A DNA stretch of 22,307 bases from the IMG/VR virus record IMGVR_UViG_3300025326_000221, positions 1 through 22,307 of that record, one strand, 5' to 3'. A program made the position numbers and the translations under genes. Of this stretch, positions 3,249 to 21,920 are shown in pieces. The notes below the pieces were generated by a model, which saw nothing but the letters and a program-made list of their open reading frames with translations, did not search any database and had not been told where the DNA came from. Every line of letters begins with the position of its first letter. Positions within the stretch are counted from its first letter, which is position 1. Source of the DNA: a virus.

Positions 3249-4147
3249 GTCCGCCCCGTCCTATCCAACACCTCGACGGCCGTCTCCCAGGGCTTGCCGT
3301 GGGTGTCCCCACGGTGGGTGAGTCGCAAGACCTTGAACTGCGTCTCCCGCCCGACGGCAGCGCTCTGGACGGCCACTACGCCCCCGGGCTCGACCTTGGG
3401 CTGGAGCAGGGAGGTGATTTTCCACCCCTCCTCCTTGGGCTTTTCCTTGGCGTCCTCCTCCCGCTTGGCCAGGCGCTCCGGGCTCCCGAGCAGGCCGGTG
3501 GCGGGGGAGAGCAGGACCACCTGGGGGGAACCGTCGTCCCCGTCCTCGGTGACGATCTTGACCTCGTTGTTCTGGCTGGATACATTAAGGCCTAGGCGCT
3601 GAGCGAGCTTTTGCAGTGCGTCCTCGGTCCGGCCCTCGAAACTGAACCCTTGGAGGTACTTGCTGTCCCGGAACTTAGACAGGAACTTATCCCGGAACTG
3701 GGAGGCTGGGATACTGGCGCCGAACACCTTGACGGCGGCCCCGTACTGCTTCAAAATATCCTGCATCACTTGTGGTGCGCTGGCATCGGCCCCGTAGGAG
3801 ACGGCGATCCGCTTCTCCCTAGCGAGCCGGGCACCGTCGTTGGCTTCCAGCTTGGTTACAACGTTGGGCGGGACCACGGCATGGGCTACGCTCACGAGGT
3901 CGCCAGCAAATACCAGCTCCGGCCCCGTCTCCTGGCGGTAGCCGGCGAATAGCAGCAGCAGGTCATCCCGGCGGAAGCGGTTGCGGGTATCCGCGGACAG
4001 GTTGTAGATGCTCACCTCGGCGGTATTCTTAGTCCTGTCCGTATCCTTTTTGACCGTGAACTCGATACGAACCCCTTCCACCCGGAACGGCAGGGCCGGG
4101 ATGGCGACGGGGTGAACCTCGATGGCGGCGATCCTATCAAAGAGCAT
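3245..4147 (-). CDS. Baseplate hub protein (gp27/gpD-like)
   Basis: 300 residues. The ATG at 4147 overlaps the end of the plug gene by 11 bases. The N-terminal third (VEGVRIEFTVKKDTDRTKNTAEVSIYNLSADTRNRF, then GPELVFAGDLVSVAHAV) is typical of phage baseplate hub proteins: beta-strand rich with the conserved AEVSIYNLS segment. The middle region (GFSFEGRTEDALQKLAQRLGLNVSSQNNEVKIV) is the second hub barrel. A charged loop of Lys/Glu residues lies around 226-242. The protein should form the trimeric hub that the Gp138-like spike, encoded immediately downstream, caps. Confidence is high because both sequence and gene order agree. Confidence 0.88.
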   Translation of the reverse strand: MLFDRIAAIEVHPVAIPALPFRVEGVRIEFTVKKDTDRTKNTAEVSIYNLSADTRNRFRRDDLLLLFAGYRQETGPELVFAGDLVSVAHAVVPPNVVTKLEANDGARLAREKRIAVSYGADASAPQVMQDILKQYGAAVKVFGASIPASQFRDKFLSKFRDSKYLQGFSFEGRTEDALQKLAQRLGLNVSSQNNEVKIVTEDGDDGSPQVVLLSPATGLLGSPERLAKREEDAKEKPKEEGWKITSLLQPKVEPGGVVAVQSAAVGRETQFKVLRLTHRGDTHGKPWETAVEVLDRTGRT

Positions 4148-4463
4148 CGACCTCGGCCTCCAGGACGTAGACGGGCTCCACGTTCGTGGGGACGTCGTCG
4201 CGCCCGATCACCTTGAGCTGGCCCCGGGGATCGGTGAAGAACACCTCGCCAGGCGGGAGGCCGCGCCCGGGGAACTGGCGGATCAGCTCGTAGTCCGGCA
4301 CGATGCGGATGCCCTCGACCAGGGAGTTGGAATCCAGGTCCCGGAAGTGCATCGTCCAGTGCGCGGCCCGCGTGTTCCAGGCGAAGGCCAGGCGGAACGG
4401 GACGCCATCGAGCGTAACCTCCTCGGTGAAGGCGGGCGCGGTCTGGAAGGGGAGCTGCTGCAT
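4137..4463 (-). CDS. Baseplate plug protein family
   Basis: 108 residues. The pattern matches the small baseplate plug family found beside the hub in Pam3-like myophages: QTAPAFTEEVTLDGVPFRLAFAWNTRAAHW, then MHFRDLDSNSLVEGIRIVPDYEL, then a LPPGEVFFTD segment. The plug closes the tail lumen within the hub in the known structure; here that is inferred from family and position. It begins 6 bases after the Dit-like stop and its end overlaps the hub start, so translation is probably coupled. No membrane segment or catalytic motif is visible. Confidence 0.82.
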   Translation of the reverse strand: MQQLPFQTAPAFTEEVTLDGVPFRLAFAWNTRAAHWTMHFRDLDSNSLVEGIRIVPDYELIRQFPGRGLPPGEVFFTDPRGQLKVIGRDDVPTNVEPVYVLEAEVDAL

Positions 4464-4469
4464 GGTGCC

Positions 4470-5081
4470 TCAGTTGAAGATCCCGAATAGGGCGGAGCGG
4501 AGCCGGGTCTCGGCTTTCGGCGTCGTTGGTGGCGGAGTTTGTTTCCCGGCATCGGCGACGGGTTTGGATCTTTCCTGCGCCACGTTTTTTGATAAGCGTT
4601 CCACCGTCCGAGATTGCACACGCTCCAACTGCCGGAAGCTGGCAGAGAACCGCAGGGCGTCGCCGGTAGCCCGATCCTTCGGGATCGACAGGCGGGTCAT
4701 AACCATCTTGGTGTAAAATTTCCTCGGCGTGGACACGATCATCGTGTCCTTGGCGTTGTAGATCCGCTCCAGCTCGGCGAACGCAAGCTCGACCAGGTTT
4801 AGGCTGGGGCCTATCACGATGCCGCCGGCAGAAGAGCCACGGATCAATTTTGCGGGGATGCCGCCCAAAAACCGGATCGGGTTATTGGTGATCATACCCT
4901 CGATGCTGATCTCCCTCGGCTCGTTGCGGATGTGGTCGGAAATATTACCGCCGGTCTCGACGGGAAATTCCGTCACCTCGGATCGGAAGTCGTGGGACTC
5001 GCGCACGAGTGCATCCAGGATAAGGTTCGGCCCTATTTGCGTGGGCGCGGGGCGCGGGCTGACCAGGTTCTCCAGGGCCAT
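4470..5081 (-). CDS. Dit-like baseplate/distal tail protein
   Basis: 203 residues. The ATG at 5081 overlaps the tape-measure stop as ATGA. The N-terminal 140 residues (LILDALVRESHDFRSEVTEFPVETGGNISDHIRNEPREISIEGMI, followed by a barrel up to LSIPKDRATGDALRFSASFRQLERV) resemble the N-terminal barrel of Dit-like tail proteins, which link the tube to the hub. The last 50 residues are a Lys/Pro/Thr-rich low-complexity tail ending in RSALFGIFN. Position directly after the tape measure and before plug and hub fits. Homology to the Dit family is by pattern only. Confidence 0.78.
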   Translation of the reverse strand: MALENLVSPRPAPTQIGPNLILDALVRESHDFRSEVTEFPVETGGNISDHIRNEPREISIEGMITNNPIRFLGGIPAKLIRGSSAGGIVIGPSLNLVELAFAELERIYNAKDTMIVSTPRKFYTKMVMTRLSIPKDRATGDALRFSASFRQLERVQSRTVERLSKNVAQERSKPVADAGKQTPPPTTPKAETRLRSALFGIFN

Positions 5082-11310: not shown

Positions 11311-11328
11311 TAAACCCGCGGCGGTTTA
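11311..11328 (-). repeat. Perfect inverted repeat at the end of the major capsid gene
   Basis: TAAACC and GGTTTA, each six bases, are separated by six GC bases; one arm includes the capsid stop codon. In RNA this forms a small hairpin. It has no U-tract after it, so it is a weak candidate for partial termination or for mRNA 3'-end protection of the abundant capsid message. Confidence 0.45.
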
Positions 11329-12264
11329 GACCTCCAGGCCGTCCACGACGGTCACGGAGAGCGGGTAGTACACGATCACGCCGCCCGTGCGGGAGTGGGT
11401 CGGGACCACGAACTCCAGGTTGCGCTCCTGGGCGGGGAACTGCTCGTATGGCTGCGGGATCTGGAGCCCGAGCTTGTCCGTGCTCCGGCGATAGATCAGC
11501 ATGATGTCCGTCGGGCCGGCGCCGCCGGTCGAGGGGATGGTCGCCAGGGCCTCGAACTCGGGAACGCCCACGAAGTTGACCCCGGGCCAGACGCGCCGCA
11601 GGAACTCCAGGATCGTGGTGTCGGAGGTCGTCGACCGCGGGGTCGAGCCGATGTGGGCGAACTGTTTCAAGGCGATGGCCACCGTGTCCGACCGCTCCAC
11701 GCCCTTTGTGAGCGAGAGCTGGGCACCGATGGCGGTGTTGACATCTTCGATGATCTCGTCCGGGGTAGCCGTCAGCCATGCCCCGTTTACCGCCGCCGTC
11801 TTGGTGACATTGGCGTTGTAGATTAGGCCCTCGATCCCGTGGCTGGCGTCGCCGAACCACGCGATCTGGTTGGTGAGTTGGTCGTTGGAGTGGCGGGCGG
11901 CGTTGGCCTTCCGCTGCTCCAGGGGCAGGCCGGTCTTGGAGGCGCGGCGGATCTCTTGGATGTTGTAGCCGAAGCTGCCGCCGATGCCGCGCACCTTGGC
12001 TGTGAACTCCTTGCCGAAGATGTCGGATCGGGGCAGGTCGTCCGCATAGCTGGAGATGATCTTCGCCATGCCGACGTGGTCGTACTGGCGATAGGTGATC
12101 GTCTCCGCGCCGGGGCCGGCGTCCGTCTCGATGGGGATCAGCTCGTAGGCCATGAACTCTGGGTAGATCACGTCGTAACTGCGGGCCTTGATGGCTTCCA
12201 GCTCGCGCTCGAAGAACGCGGTTTCGTTCGCGTTCAGGTTCTGGGTATGGATAGCTTCCTTCAT
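11326..12264 (-). CDS. Major capsid protein (DUF2184 family)
   Basis: 312 residues, ATG at 12264 preceded by GAGGAG at suitable spacing. Landmarks of DUF2184 capsid proteins are visible: an N-terminal helix (NETAFFERELEAIKARSYDVIYPEFMAYELIPIETDAGPGAETITYRQYD), SSYADDLPRSDIFGKEFTAKVRGIGGSFGYNIQEIRRASKTGLPLEQRKA, then AWFGDASHGIEGLIYN. The C-terminal end is PAQERNLEFVVPTHSRTGGVIVYYPLSVTVVDGLEV. The family has the HK97 fold and in related phages lacks a self-cross-linking motif. It follows the protease/scaffold and cement genes, giving the complete procapsid set. No delta-domain-like extension is visible at the N-terminus. Confidence 0.92.
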   Translation of the reverse strand: MKEAIHTQNLNANETAFFERELEAIKARSYDVIYPEFMAYELIPIETDAGPGAETITYRQYDHVGMAKIISSYADDLPRSDIFGKEFTAKVRGIGGSFGYNIQEIRRASKTGLPLEQRKANAARHSNDQLTNQIAWFGDASHGIEGLIYNANVTKTAAVNGAWLTATPDEIIEDVNTAIGAQLSLTKGVERSDTVAIALKQFAHIGSTPRSTTSDTTILEFLRRVWPGVNFVGVPEFEALATIPSTGGAGPTDIMLIYRRSTDKLGLQIPQPYEQFPAQERNLEFVVPTHSRTGGVIVYYPLSVTVVDGLEV

Positions 12265-12331: not shown

Positions 12332-13081
12332 TTACGGCTGGTTGATCTCGACGACGGCGAGCTGGCCAGTGGTGGCCGCGCTGCGGAACTTGGCTCCCGT
12401 CACTTGGATCGAGTTCGTGCTATCGTTGCGGAACTTACCCTCGCTGCCCGCGGCGTAGCTGATGTAGACGTCGTCGCCGTCGGCGATGGTGTCCACGACC
12501 GGCACCCAGGCCTTGCCGCGCCGGAGCGTGTTGACGCTGTCCAGCGTCTCGTAGCCGACCAGGGATTCCTTCTGCTCGTGCAGGGCGATGCCCCGGACGG
12601 TAGCAGCGGTATCGCCGCTGGAGGCGGTAACCACGACTCCGGCCTGCGATGCGCCGCCGGTGACGATGGCGTTGTTCACGGTCACAGTGACGTTCTCGCC
12701 CACGATGGTGAGGGTACGATTTCCAGCGCCGCCTACGGTGGCGGAGAGGACTCCGTCCACGGCTTCCACGGCCGCCTCGGCGGCTTGCATGGTGGCCAGG
12801 TGGGAGGTGGCGAACAGGACGCTGATCACCGTGGTGACCCCGTCCACGACCAGGTCGAAGGAGAGGGTGTTGGCGGTGATGAGGTCGGCGTCAAGCACGA
12901 CCGCTGAGGTGTTGATCAGGGGCCTGCGCACGGCCGTGAGGTCGGTTTGGGCTTGGACCACGCCGAGGCCGAAGTCTACCTGGGCGGCGGCGGGGTGGCT
13001 CTCGACGTAGTCGAAGCCGGCGTCCGCCTTCATGCCCGCGATGGCGGCGGCGGTGGTGAGGGAATAGCTGGTCTGCGACAT
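12332..13081 (-). CDS. Capsid cement/decoration protein with inserted module
   Basis: 249 residues, ATG at 13081 with AAGGAGA upstream. The outer parts (AIAGMKADAGFDYVESHPAAAQVDFGLGVVQ at residues 14-44 and VRGIALHEQKE through IQVTGAKFRSAATTGQLAVVEIN at 162-246) resemble the Gp24-like structural cement proteins made next to DUF2184 capsids; there is a conserved DGDDVYISYAAGSEGKF segment. Residues about 59-158 interrupt this with a separate beta/alpha module (ANTLSFDLVVDGVTTVISVLFATSHLATMQAAEAAVEAVDG) similar to modules in sheath and baseplate J. Cement proteins bind the capsid exterior, so an insertion could be displayed on the particle surface. Confidence 0.8.
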   Translation of the reverse strand: MSQTSYSLTTAAAIAGMKADAGFDYVESHPAAAQVDFGLGVVQAQTDLTAVRRPLINTSAVVLDADLITANTLSFDLVVDGVTTVISVLFATSHLATMQAAEAAVEAVDGVLSATVGGAGNRTLTIVGENVTVTVNNAIVTGGASQAGVVVTASSGDTAATVRGIALHEQKESLVGYETLDSVNTLRRGKAWVPVVDTIADGDDVYISYAAGSEGKFRNDSTNSIQVTGAKFRSAATTGQLAVVEINQP

Positions 13082-13150: not shown

Positions 13151-13714
13151 TTACTCGCCGTCCTTCTTCTTGTCCTTGCCGCCGTTCTTGAGGCGGTCCA
13201 GCATATTGTTGCGGGCCTCGTCCTGGCCACCCTTCTCCGGGGTGTTGTCGTGCCGATGGGCGGAGGCGCTGCGGCTGGCCGCGAGCTTGTCGTCGGCGTT
13301 GTCCTTGTCCACGTTCTCCGTGGCGATGTCGAAGCGGGCCTGGATATACTGCTCGGTCTGGCCGTTCAGGCTGGTGCCCTTGGCCGACTTCGCCAGGACC
13401 ACGGCGGTCTTGATCTCCAGGTCGGTCATGGTGTCGAGCTTGTTGACGGCCTCGGCGTCCAGCACCTTGGCCGCGATCCCGGTGAGGACCGCGCGCGCCT
13501 TCGAGGCGGCGAGGATCTTGGCGGGCATTTCGTTCGTGGCGGTGTCCAGCTTGGTCTTCAAGCCGTCGCGCTCGCCGGTGACTGTGTCGAGCTTCGCCTG
13601 CGCCGTGACCTTATCGCTATTGAGCGAAGTGTTTGCGGTGTTCAGGCGTTCCAGTTCCTTCGCCACTTCGGGTGCGGCCTCGTACTGGATTCCGTTGATC
13701 GTGACCTTTACCAT
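13151..13714 (-). CDS. Nested scaffold protein from an internal start (predicted)
   Basis: An ATG at residue 196 of the DUF2213 gene has GAGGAG six bases upstream, and the following sequence MVKVTINGIQYEAAPEVAKE reads like a native N-terminus at exactly the protease/scaffold boundary. The product would be 187 residues: a predicted coiled coil (KELERLNTANTSLNSDKVTAQAKLDTV), then a charged C-terminus. This is the arrangement of lambda C/Nu3, where scaffold alone is made in excess of the protease fusion. Internal initiation is inferred, not proven; the ribosome-binding site could be fortuitous. Confidence 0.6.
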   Translation of the reverse strand: MVKVTINGIQYEAAPEVAKELERLNTANTSLNSDKVTAQAKLDTVTGERDGLKTKLDTATNEMPAKILAASKARAVLTGIAAKVLDAEAVNKLDTMTDLEIKTAVVLAKSAKGTSLNGQTEQYIQARFDIATENVDKDNADDKLAASRSASAHRHDNTPEKGGQDEARNNMLDRLKNGGKDKKKDGE

Positions 13715-14299
13715 TTTCGTCTCCTCGTTGGGGTTGGCGTTGTTCCTGGCTTCGACCCTTACGGCATAAGGTACATCCGAATTGATGCGCATGGTGGAAC
13801 CGAACCGCGCCTCGTCTACGAGGGCTAGGTGGTTCTGCCGGATGTTCCGCTGGCGGAAGTTGTAGGCTTGACCCTCGTAAACGCCGGACTCCTCGTACAG
13901 GTCGAGGAAATAGCCGGTCGACAGCTCGTGCTTTCCGGCCTCGATGGCGCGGATGGCGGCGGCGTCGGTGATCACGACCTCGGCGGAAAGGAACGGGGCA
14001 TCCACCTGGATGCTGTTGCCGACGTGGCCCACGCTCAGCTCCTTCGAGTTGGAGGCGGTGAGCATTTCCTTCGGGTGTTCCAGCGTGATTGGGATATTCT
14101 TCAGCGAGTCCATCGACGCCTTGCTGAATACGTCGTCGGGGTGGCATAGCTCGTAGCGCAGGGAACCGTCGCCGTTGCGATAAGCGAACACGCCAGTCTT
14201 GCCGACGGTGCCCACGCCCTTGAGGTAACCCTCGGGCGTTTTTTCCGCGTTGAGGTGAACCTCGTGGCGGTCAAAGCGTGCGACGCGTTCTTTCGTCAT
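13151..14299 (-). CDS. DUF2213 prohead protease-scaffold fusion
   Basis: 382 residues. The start at 14299 is the only start codon after an in-frame stop at 14341, and begins directly after eight T of a terminator. Residues 1-170 match the DUF2213 head-maturation protease: TPEGYLKGVGTVGKTGVFAY, ITLEHPKEML (His75), a KELSVGHVGN segment, HELSTGYFLDLYEE (Ser127) and QNHLALVDEARFG (His157). Ser127 with the two His residues are the likely catalytic groups, by analogy with the herpes/HK97-type serine protease fold. Residues 196-382 form a Lys/Glu-rich helical scaffold with a polar tail ending GGKDKKKDGE. The protease would cut scaffold and itself during maturation. Upstream expression may be controlled by the adjacent attenuator. 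Confidence 0.88.
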   Translation of the reverse strand: MTKERVARFDRHEVHLNAEKTPEGYLKGVGTVGKTGVFAYRNGDGSLRYELCHPDDVFSKASMDSLKNIPITLEHPKEMLTASNSKELSVGHVGNSIQVDAPFLSAEVVITDAAAIRAIEAGKHELSTGYFLDLYEESGVYEGQAYNFRQRNIRQNHLALVDEARFGSTMRINSDVPYAVRVEARNNANPNEETKMVKVTINGIQYEAAPEVAKELERLNTANTSLNSDKVTAQAKLDTVTGERDGLKTKLDTATNEMPAKILAASKARAVLTGIAAKVLDAEAVNKLDTMTDLEIKTAVVLAKSAKGTSLNGQTEQYIQARFDIATENVDKDNADDKLAASRSASAHRHDNTPEKGGQDEARNNMLDRLKNGGKDKKKDGE

Positions 14300-14342
14300 A
14301 AAAAAAACCCCCGGTGCCTTGTGGGCTCGGGGGCGTTCTCAC
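14271..14342 (-). other. Possible leader ORF through the terminator
   Basis: A GTG at 14342 lies about 12 bases after GGAGG and opens a 23-residue reading frame (VRTPPSPQGTGGFFYDERTR and so on) that spans the terminator hairpin and ends at TGA 14271, overlapping the DUF2213 start in another frame. If translated, a ribosome would prevent the hairpin from forming. Its existence as a real peptide is uncertain. Confidence 0.3.
14300..14333 (-). terminator. Strong intrinsic terminator abutting the DUF2213 start codon
   Basis: On the minus strand, CCCCCG and CGGGGG form the outer stem and GCC/GGC the inner stem around a CACAA loop (14308-14333), followed immediately by eight T (14300-14307) and then the ATG at 14299. 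The direction is unambiguous because the T-run follows the hairpin only on the minus strand. It lies between the packaging and capsid blocks. Confidence 0.85.
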
Positions 14343-14390
14343 TGCTGGTTTTCTCCTCCAGGTGATCCGGCTACCTATGCGTTGACCCAT

Positions 14391-14419
14391 ATCATACTCG
14401 CTTGCATAGAATTTGGCAA
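14391..14419 (-). promoter_or_regulatory. Sigma70-type promoter upstream of the capsid operon
   Basis: On the minus strand a -35 TTGCCA (14419-14414) and a -10 TATGAT (14396-14391) are separated by 17 bases, each one mismatch from consensus. Transcription would start near 14384, giving a leader of about 85 bases before the DUF2213 start. GTTGAC (14433-14428) and GTCAAC (14386-14381) are a six-base inverted pair flanking the promoter and could be an operator, but six bases may be chance. Confidence 0.7.
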
Positions 14420-14443
14420 GTGGTTCTGTCAACCTCCGAGAAA

Positions 14444-14641
14444 TTATCCCAGGTGGGTAGTGGGAACTGGGGGAGGGCGGTCGGCGGTTCTGGCCCGCAG
14501 GTCGTGCTCCTTCCGCACGCTCACCTTGGCGATGGAGCCCTGGCGCAGGTCCAGGTCGAAGGAGATCCGGCCGGTGAAACCGGCTCCTAGCTCTGGCGCT
14601 ACCACGGTGCCGGCAGCCTCTATCCACTCACGCAGATTCAC
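14444..14641 (-). CDS. Small unknown protein after the head morphogenesis gene
   Basis: 65 residues. GTG at 14641 overlaps the preceding TGA as GTGA, and this tight coupling is the main reason to accept it. It reads MNLREWIEAAGTVVAPELGAGFTGRISFDLDLRQGSIAKVSVRKEHDLR and ends in a Pro-rich tail. The middle looks like a beta structure (GRISFDLDLRQGSIAKVSV). It is the last gene of the packaging block before the regulatory gap. I do not recognise the family. There is no membrane helix or cysteine pair. Confidence 0.68.
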   Translation of the reverse strand: MNLREWIEAAGTVVAPELGAGFTGRISFDLDLRQGSIAKVSVRKEHDLRARTADRPPPVPTTHLG

Positions 14642-15534
14642 TCCTCGGCCTCCGCCAATAGGCCGGTGAGGTCCGGCTCAGCGGTGCAACGACAGTTGAT
14701 CGGCTGGCCGGGGTGGCCGTCGGATGGCGGGTTGCTCCAAGCGAACTTCTTCCCCTCGCGCGTCCAGTGGGACGGTTTCGCATCCGGATATTTCCCGGCG
14801 GGGTTTCCACGCACGCGCTCGTCCTGGCTATTGCGCCAGATATAGCCGGTGACTCCGGCGGCGGTTTGTCGGCGCTGCGTGAGGTCGGCGTTGAGCTTGG
14901 CGGTTTGATCGCGGGCCAGCAGCTTAGCCTTCGAGCGGGAGACGTCGAGGCGCTCGCGGATCTTCTTCGCGATCTCCTCGTGGCGTTGGCCAGAGCGGAG
15001 GCCGGAGAGCGTCCACCGTTCGACCTGGGCGACGGCATCCTCCTCCAGGCTGGTGATCAGGCCGGCGTTCTCGGTGGCCCAGGCCGCCAGCTCCGGACGG
15101 AGCCACGGCTCGGCCTGGAACAGTTCCACACCCAGCACGGATCGCAGCACCTTGCGCCACTCCTTGTCGTTCCACTTTCCGATGTCGTCGGCGAATCCCT
15201 CGGCCAGGCGTGTGGGCGGGGTTCGGCCTCGTCCGAGGTTCAGTTTGAGCACGGCGATCAGGCGCGCGGCCTCCTCAGGCCATTGATTGCGGCGGGCGGT
15301 GTTGGTGGTGGGGCGGCCGGCAGCGGCCTCTGCCACGAGTCCAGGAAGATGAGGGAGAAAGAACTCCACCCATATGGCCTCTATCCGATCGATCAGCTCC
15401 AGCAGGCGGTTGCGATAGCTGCGGCCGATTGCGGCGGGGCGGATCATTACCGGCGGACGGCGGAGGCGCTTCGGGATCTTGCCGCGCTGGCGGGCCGCGC
15501 GGAGGCGGAGGCGCAGCTCGTCGGAGATCGGCAC
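14638..15534 (-). CDS. Phage head morphogenesis protein (Mu F / SPP1 gp7-like)
   Basis: 298 residues, GTG at 15534, preceded by GAGGAG across the portal end. The C-terminal domain is diagnostic: a helical HEEIAKKIRERLDVSRSKAKLLARDQTAKLNADLTQRRQTAAGVTGYIWRNSQDERVR segment, and then a FAWSNPPSDGHPGQPINCRCTAEPDL ending in the conserved PxxGHPGxxxNCRC motif with its cysteine pair. The basic N-terminus (RLRLRAARQRGKIPKRLRRPP) is unusual in charge but plausible. This family helps assemble heads or eject DNA and is encoded after the portal, as here. Confidence 0.92.
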   Translation of the reverse strand: MPISDELRLRLRAARQRGKIPKRLRRPPVMIRPAAIGRSYRNRLLELIDRIEAIWVEFFLPHLPGLVAEAAAGRPTTNTARRNQWPEEAARLIAVLKLNLGRGRTPPTRLAEGFADDIGKWNDKEWRKVLRSVLGVELFQAEPWLRPELAAWATENAGLITSLEEDAVAQVERWTLSGLRSGQRHEEIAKKIRERLDVSRSKAKLLARDQTAKLNADLTQRRQTAAGVTGYIWRNSQDERVRGNPAGKYPDAKPSHWTREGKKFAWSNPPSDGHPGQPINCRCTAEPDLTGLLAEAEE

Positions 15535-21092: not shown

Positions 21093-21383
21093 TTAGGCGG
21101 TTTTTTTGTTGTCCTCAAAAATAGCTTTTGATGGTCCTGGTGCGAAGCTGTGGAACTTCCTGTCCTTGATCACGATTTCATCCAGGCTGTTCTCGCTGTC
21201 GTAGTAGAAAAGCCGCTGCCCAGCCTTGAGGTGGCCGAACTGGAATAGCCGAGCGACCACGCCCTCGGCGTCGTTGGTCACGGTGGGGTGCTGGTCCCAT
21301 GGGCCTTGGTCCATGATCAAGACGTGATCGCTGGCCCGGTGGAGTATGCAGAAGTTCGCTGCACGCCATAGTGGAGGGCTCAT
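21093..21383 (-). CDS. Unknown phage protein
   Basis: 96 residues. The ATG at 21383 overlaps the stop of the zinc-ribbon gene (ATGA), supporting its reality. Features seen: HVLIMDQGPWDQHPTVTNDAEGVVARL, LKAGQRLFYYDSENSLDEIVI, and a Lys/Asn-rich end. No known motif, signal peptide or membrane helix is present. It sits just before the DUF5131 gene in the accessory block. The conserved-looking DQGPWDQHPTVTN and LFYYDS segments suggest a true protein family, but I cannot name a function. Confidence 0.75.
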   Translation of the reverse strand: MSPPLWRAANFCILHRASDHVLIMDQGPWDQHPTVTNDAEGVVARLFQFGHLKAGQRLFYYDSENSLDEIVIKDRKFHSFAPGPSKAIFEDNKKTA

Positions 21384-21637
21384 GACCGGCCTCCGACTGG
21401 TATCATCCGGCCGCCGTTTCGGAATGTCCAGCAGGTGGAGCAGTATTTCCGGCCCTCCTCCTCGTGTTGGGTTTTCTTTTTCCCGCAGCCGAAGCAGAAT
21501 GGGAGAACCGCCGGAGAGGTCGGCGCGGCCGGCTCAGGTTCCTGAGCCGCCGGTTTGCCCATGTCAATGGACTGGGAAAGGATGGCCATTCCCATGCCGT
21601 AAAGGTTCGGCCTGGTGCTGCTGGTTCGGTTACGCAT
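21380..21637 (-). CDS. Small zinc-ribbon-like protein
   Basis: 85 residues, ATG at 21637 with GGAG upstream, overlapping the SpoVG-like stop by eight bases. Four cysteines, C48-x2-C51 and C66-x2-C69 (FCFGCGKKK and KYCSTCW), are spaced like a zinc ribbon. The N-terminus is basic and then Pro/Ala-rich. A shifted frame from 21660 is longer at its start but lacks these motifs and is treated as a shadow. Such small ribbons often bind nucleic acids or act as adapters; that role is not shown here. Confidence 0.72.
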   Translation of the reverse strand: MRNRTSSTRPNLYGMGMAILSQSIDMGKPAAQEPEPAAPTSPAVLPFCFGCGKKKTQHEEEGRKYCSTCWTFRNGGRMIPVGGRS

Positions 21638-21920
21638 GGGCCATCTCCAGCTCGCTCCATGCCGCCAGGACCTTCACCGCGACCTCCTCCTGGAGGGCCT
21701 TGGTGATGGGGTGGACCATCTGGAAGCCATTTTGCGCGGCCTTGTCGAAGTGGGATGGCCAGGAAACGAACGGGCCGAATTTGCCCCGGACGACCCGGAG
21801 GTGGTTGACCACCAGCGCGCCGTTGAATACGACCCGCGCGAAGGCGCGTACCTGAGCGTCTGGCGCCTGGTTCGGGATGGGGTTGACTTTGACCTCGGTG
21901 ACTTCGATGCCGTTGATCAT
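21630..21920 (-). CDS. SpoVG-like protein
   Basis: 96 residues, ATG at 21920 with AGGAGA upstream. The pattern matches SpoVG: EVTEVKVNPIP near the start, then AFARVVFNGALVVNHLRVVRGKFGPFVSWPS, the HPITKALQEEVAVKVLAAW end, and spacing close to the 80-100 residue bacterial family. In bacteria SpoVG binds nucleic acid and influences cell-wall and septation genes, and in phages it may be a regulator; its role here is unknown. It opens a cluster of small genes tightly joined to it (zinc ribbon next, eight-base overlap). Confidence 0.88.
   Translation of the reverse strand: MINGIEVTEVKVNPIPNQAPDAQVRAFARVVFNGALVVNHLRVVRGKFGPFVSWPSHFDKAAQNGFQMVHPITKALQEEVAVKVLAAWSELEMAHA

Follow-up and report, generated by a model that had tools for sequence, protein, structure and literature searches.

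A recurrent promoter–leader–terminator cassette before the DUF2213 head maturation protease gene of phages, and its possible role in the timing of head building

In the viral DNA analyzed here (the window: 22,307 nucleotides, positions 1 to 22,307 of IMG/VR record IMGVR_UViG_3300025326_000221), a promoter, a short leader and an intrinsic terminator are set in series directly before the gene for a DUF2213 head maturation protease. Sequence comparison confirms that this arrangement is real and recurs in a dozen quite different phages, a recurrence that is not apparent from the window by itself. Because the same arrangement occupies the same spot in so many phages, it probably serves as a switch, or encodes a small RNA, in the timing of head building. 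The interpretation we favor, to which we would give about an even chance, is that the element represents a terminator-gated promoter of the lambda pR′–tR′ or AlpA–alpB kind, opened by a predicted antitermination factor.

Results

The element lies within a block of minus-strand genes (Table 1), which runs from terminase (PF17289) and portal (PF06381) through the Mu F-like (MuF) protein and a 65-aa ORF to the promoter, leader and terminator, and then to the protease, cement, major capsid and further genes. The earlier note on this DNA had placed the element at the start of a capsid operon; the capsid gene does lie downstream, but the gene immediately behind the terminator encodes the head maturation protease.

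Table 1. Features of the element and its surroundings in the window
Feature	Position	Strand	Remarks
Major capsid gene	11326–12264	−	PF09950; 3′ of the putative gate
Cement gene	12332–13081	−	PF22758; 3′ of the putative gate
DUF2213 head maturation protease	13151–14299	−	PF09979, 5e-40; phrog_530, 6e-84; first gene past the terminator
GTG leader ORF	14271–14342	−	23 codons, GGAGG upstream; present in the window, judged not functional
Intrinsic terminator	14300–14334	−	Stem GCCCCCG/CGGGGGT, inner stem GCC/GGC, then T8
Leader RNA segment with hairpin 1	14335–14384	−	Identical in L007 and L013
Hairpin 1	14339–14365	−	TCACCTGG (14365–14358) pairs with CCAG (14348–14345) and GTGA (14342–14339); four-sequence alignment
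Sigma70-type promoter	14391–14419	−	−35 TTGCCA (14419–14414), 17-nt spacer, −10 TATGAT (14396–14391)
65-aa ORF	14444–14641	−	Upstream of the promoter; start overlaps the MuF stop codon
Mu F-like head morphogenesis protein	14638–15534	−	PF04233; final large gene of the upstream packaging block

The promoter that the note had described can be read directly from the sequence and matches the consensus at 10 of 12 positions; its position predicts a transcription start at about 14384. By itself it is non-significant in the window, where a scan of 17.3 kb returned two matches, this one included, against an average of 2.2 in shuffled sequence, and the case for it therefore depends on recurrence. The strong hairpin with a T8 run, likewise claimed from the letters, holds up on direct reading (hairpin 14334–14307, T8 14307–14300, protease ATG at 14299 directly after) and on folding, at −20 kcal/mol (z = −3.65), with none of 200 shuffles as good. 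A simple terminator scan does not list this hairpin, presumably because its stem is bulged. Since the T run leads directly into the ATG, an RNA that ended there would lack the start codon, and expression of the protease and the genes behind it would depend entirely on readthrough transcripts. It had also been suggested that the G5 arm of the hairpin could serve as a weak ribosome-binding site, which would then be hidden in the stem; this is possible in the window and in one other carrier (L144), but four others (L024, L025, L062 and L142) have a Shine–Dalgarno (SD)-like sequence past the terminator, so that a hidden site is not a general feature.

The predicted leader RNA, from the start at about 14384 to the T8 run, is about 80 nt long. 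An alignment of four leaders—the window, L007, L013 and L008—backs two helices, hairpin 1 and the terminator, with modest support, as three of the four sequences are close. In helix 1 (TCACCTGG with CCAG/GTGA), 93.8% of cells are paired and one change is two-sided; in the terminator helix, three base pairs are altered on both sides. No Rfam 15 family matches the element at the gathering threshold, the best sub-threshold matches being far below it. A leader pattern scan across all viral contigs returned three contigs already known and no others, and distant carriers have a hairpin and terminator with no recognizable likeness in leader sequence. A refolding antiterminator, formed by the 5′ segment of the leader and a terminator arm, was dropped as a candidate after inspection by eye, few such pairs being possible in the window.

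Relatives of the window fall at several distances. An IMG/VR contig (3300002460_000226) is 99.99% identical to an 11.1-kb stretch of it, while three further relatives share its gene order at 65% (L007 and L013) and 52% (L008) identity in DUF2213; the 65-aa ORF is also kept in these three (tblastn). The note had proposed comparing the element in related genomes, and its hairpin and promoter are indeed retained in these three: in L007 and L013 the whole series from promoter through leader to terminator still stands immediately before the ATG, and in L008 the promoter, the leader hairpin and the terminator persist in altered sequence. The edges of the promoter spacer, AATTC and CGAG, are common to the window, L007 and L013; such conserved edges fit a factor that binds the spacer, and in three sequences this is suggestive.

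The comparison of L007 with L013 provides something of a natural footprint. These two contigs are about 99% identical overall, apart from a more diverged block from about 3841 to 4464, probably recombined, in which the small ORF differs at about 8% of positions. Within this block, 76 positions (4384–4459), which comprise the final spacer bases, the −10 element, the leader and the 5′ stem of the terminator, show zero changes, and the −35 element, the terminator stem and T8 are unchanged as well. By contrast, the spacer core carries five changes in six bases, the terminator loop carries three in five with the stem retained, and the alignment upstream of −35 is poor. This distribution of changed and unchanged positions argues that promoter, leader and terminator stem are constrained and the remainder is free, although part of it could also have arisen through small tracts of recombination. 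The short diverged block (L007:3841–4464, L013:3541–4464) ends within the terminator loop, and L013 has an insertion of about 275 bp between MuF and the small ORF; from these alignments, the edge of the cassette looks like a recombination boundary.

The footprint also bears on the GTG leader ORF. This GGAGG-led frame of 23 codons, which the note had reported as crossing the hairpin, is present in the window, and ribosomes translating it would, under leader-peptide attenuation, open the terminator hairpin. An SD-led leader ORF is otherwise found, with a different sequence, in L064, but not in the closest relatives (L007, L013 and L008) or in L024, L025, L048, L060, L062, L068 and L142. Furthermore, the differences between L007 and L013 that fall within the GTG frame, in the loop, change amino acids, and thus the peptide; and an open frame through the hairpin is not special, since the window's frame remains open far upstream (14271–14627). 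Readthrough by translation of the leader, as the note had supposed, is thus not upheld by the relatives; a translational leader-peptide attenuator, for which a conserved translatable ORF is expected, was rejected as a classification, and we consider the mechanism very improbable.

The recurrence of the cassette was assessed in 128 non-redundant DUF2213 loci, 81 viral and 47 from genomes, where a terminator was defined as a hairpin of −10 kcal/mol or lower with a T-rich tail at most 120 nt ahead of the protease, and a promoter as a consensus match of at least 10/12 lying 30–150 nt upstream of the terminator. A terminator precedes DUF2213 at 17 of the 81 viral and 6 of the 47 genome loci, and a promoter stands ahead of the terminator at 10 of those 17 viral loci and at 1 of the 6 from genomes. 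Ahead of other terminators in the same viral loci, a promoter was found once in 90 (p = 6e-9, a value that overstates independence because the rows are related). An earlier count had placed a terminator at 16/81 DUF2213 starts, against 0/26 portal and 0/36 MuF starts and a background expectation of 3.5%. Most relatives are without the cassette. Among carriers, the −10 element and the T run are separated by 80–101 nt in nine (the window, L007, L008, L024, L025, L035, L048, L062 and L064) and by 61–67 nt in three (L068, L142 and L144), and the divergent relatives have TTGACA-17-TAnnnT-like promoters at the equivalent position. In a quick DUF2213 tree, all 13 carriers fall within one group of 60 rows, in several sub-lineages; their distribution requires four changes by parsimony, as low a number as in none of 500 shuffles, which indicates clear clustering, and a single origin of the cassette is compatible with this tree. 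At the level of sequence, these comparisons show a shared anatomy, its recurrence and selective constraint on the element.

Among isolate phages, the window element has no DNA match in the collection searched, and scans of 16 annotated phages found the promoter-then-terminator order in none. In B054, a terminator-like hairpin lies ahead of DUF2213. In Vibrio phage 99E28-6 (L225:880–1014), the head maturation protease gene is preceded by a terminator and then a promoter, the reverse of the order in the window. Pseudomonas phage phiKT28, a Pbunavirus, has an AT-rich gap of about 550 bp without annotated genes before the protease gene (L224:815–1365), with TATAAT-type promoter candidates and no terminator found.

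Terminators alone are more widely distributed. Promoterless terminators precede DUF2213 in some Clostridia prophages and, in prophages of Achromobacter, Cupriavidus and Pasteurellaceae, the major capsid gene; in beta- and gammaproteobacterial prophages (L094, L095, L107, L108 and L112), the intrinsic terminator lies just upstream of the capsid gene at 5001. Terminators inside head operons are therefore not rare, and reflect a wider phenomenon; the distinctive part of the cassette is the promoter set before the terminator. Such promoterless cases speak for a leaky, unregulated internal terminator that holds head and packaging proteins at a constant ratio, or insulates neighboring units. As an account of the cassette, however, we regard it as quite unlikely, as it leaves unexplained both the constraint on the leader and a promoter that lies 60–100 nt ahead of the terminator and is directed into it.

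The main rival of the gate is a phage small-RNA gene, whose RNA of about 80 nt would act in trans with its position incidental, or would serve a dual purpose as IsrK does. The element has the fitting size, its own promoter and terminator, and a U8 tail; the leader is fully conserved between L007 and L013, single-stranded parts included; the leader of the same cassette in L060 bears a solitary CRISPR-like repeat; and IsrK provides a precedent (PMC4825925). Against this stand the fixed place of the cassette directly before DUF2213 across several sub-lineages and the persistence of its architecture while leader sequences diverge strongly among lineages. A covariance model of the leader, moreover, matched once in each carrier record tested, always at the position before DUF2213 and nowhere else. 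On balance, a small-RNA gene appears possible, though rather unlikely.

The solitary repeat in L060 (IMGVR_UViG_3300036885_000129), GTCGCGCCTTTCGTAGGCGCGTGGATTGAAAC at 1166–1197, is absent from the cassette of its close relative L062. A degenerate form of GTCGCGCCTTTCGTAGGCGCGTGGATTGAAAC matches tandem arrays with a spacing of about 66 nt in three viral contigs (L257, L258 and L268), on the strength of which it looks like a CRISPR repeat, which we take to be of type I-C. It is a candidate RNA anti-CRISPR unit by its sequence; solitary CRISPR repeat units have elsewhere been shown to work as small RNA (PMC10651486).

A factor that could open the terminator was sought in 11 records, several of them fragments. 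Of the diverse Q-type factors, which include lambdaQ (PF03589), Q21 (PF06530) and Q82 (PF06323), the search covered the first two and matched neither in any of the records, positive controls being matched. NusG-like proteins (PF02357), which NusG/LoaP-type processive antitermination would call for, likewise went unmatched in these 11 records, with controls matched; such a factor may instead come from the host. The window encodes a SpoVG-family protein (PF04026, 3e-15) at 21630–21920, beside a small cysteine-containing protein (21380–21637). The SpoVG-like protein had been put forward as a readthrough factor, a role at odds with the lack of a homolog in 11 other records, nine of them with the cassette and several of them fragments.

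Discussion

Comparison lends good support to the gate that the earlier note envisaged before the head genes; that the genes downstream would need readthrough follows from the anatomy. In a terminator-gated promoter of this kind, host sigma70 RNA polymerase would start at about 14384, make the leader RNA with its one conserved hairpin, and mostly halt on reaching the T8 run, immediately ahead of the protease ATG. Genes of the same direction flank the cassette on both sides in most carriers, and the terminator would therefore also stop packaging-block transcripts, halting polymerase that arrives from the terminase–portal–MuF block. The head genes would be turned on when a modified polymerase passes the terminator through a phage or host antitermination factor. 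The target of this factor may be the spacer of the promoter, in the manner of lambda Q and AlpA, or the conserved leader RNA, on the model of HK022 put, or both. We infer promoter firing, termination and regulated antitermination from the anatomy described above.

Between co-directional genes, such a gate would make sense of an internal promoter from which polymerase runs at once into a terminator. Several observations weigh against the gate: a leader of about 80 nt is of ordinary small-RNA size; the leaders of distant carriers diverge more than would be expected for one reading factor; the cassette is missing from most relatives; and lambdaQ, Q21 and NusG went unmatched in the 11 records, several of which are fragments. 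It is also conceivable, though unlikely, that the element belongs to a new class of switch, in which a structured leader and terminator gate the head genes of DUF2213-protease phages, the leader itself or a new factor provides antitermination, and the same RNA serves as a small-RNA platform, a role at which the CRISPR-like repeat in the L060 leader hints.

The delay of virion genes in tailed phages that have neither a known Q nor a phage polymerase is often unexplained. A conserved cassette that spans about 120 bp and keeps to a single position is compact and directly testable, and may provide a handle toward a new antitermination factor or a phage small RNA.

The leader between lambda pR′ and tR′ is about 190 nt long. 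The window resembles this system at the sequence level in its sigma70 promoter, short leader and intrinsic terminator before late virion genes. It differs in that its leader is shorter, its element lies amid genes for morphogenesis, and the 11 records gave no match to the lambdaQ or Q21 families; lambda Q loads at a promoter-proximal pause by way of a DNA element (PMC7171158). In the case of IsrK of Gifsy-1, one promoter gives rise both to a short RNA that ends at a terminator and to an mRNA that reads through (PMC4825925); IsrK adjoins antQ and regulates an anti-repressor gene, whereas the next gene in the window is the head protease and the RNA is a predicted one. The put RNA of the lambdoid phage HK022 makes polymerase resistant to termination in the early genes (PMC9378689); by its description, a structured nascent leader near the promoter, such as that of the window, could itself confer resistance, although put acts on early genes and the window element precedes head genes. 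Finally, AlpA of Pseudomonas aeruginosa binds between −35 and −10, after which polymerase bypasses a terminator (tB) immediately upstream of alpB (PMC7969949). AlpA–alpB, unlike the window, governs cell-lysis genes of a bacterium; the window terminator nevertheless stands, as tB does, immediately before the first ORF, and where AlpA has its binding element in the −35/−10 spacer, the spacers of the window, L007 and L013 share their edges, a likeness that is suggestive only.
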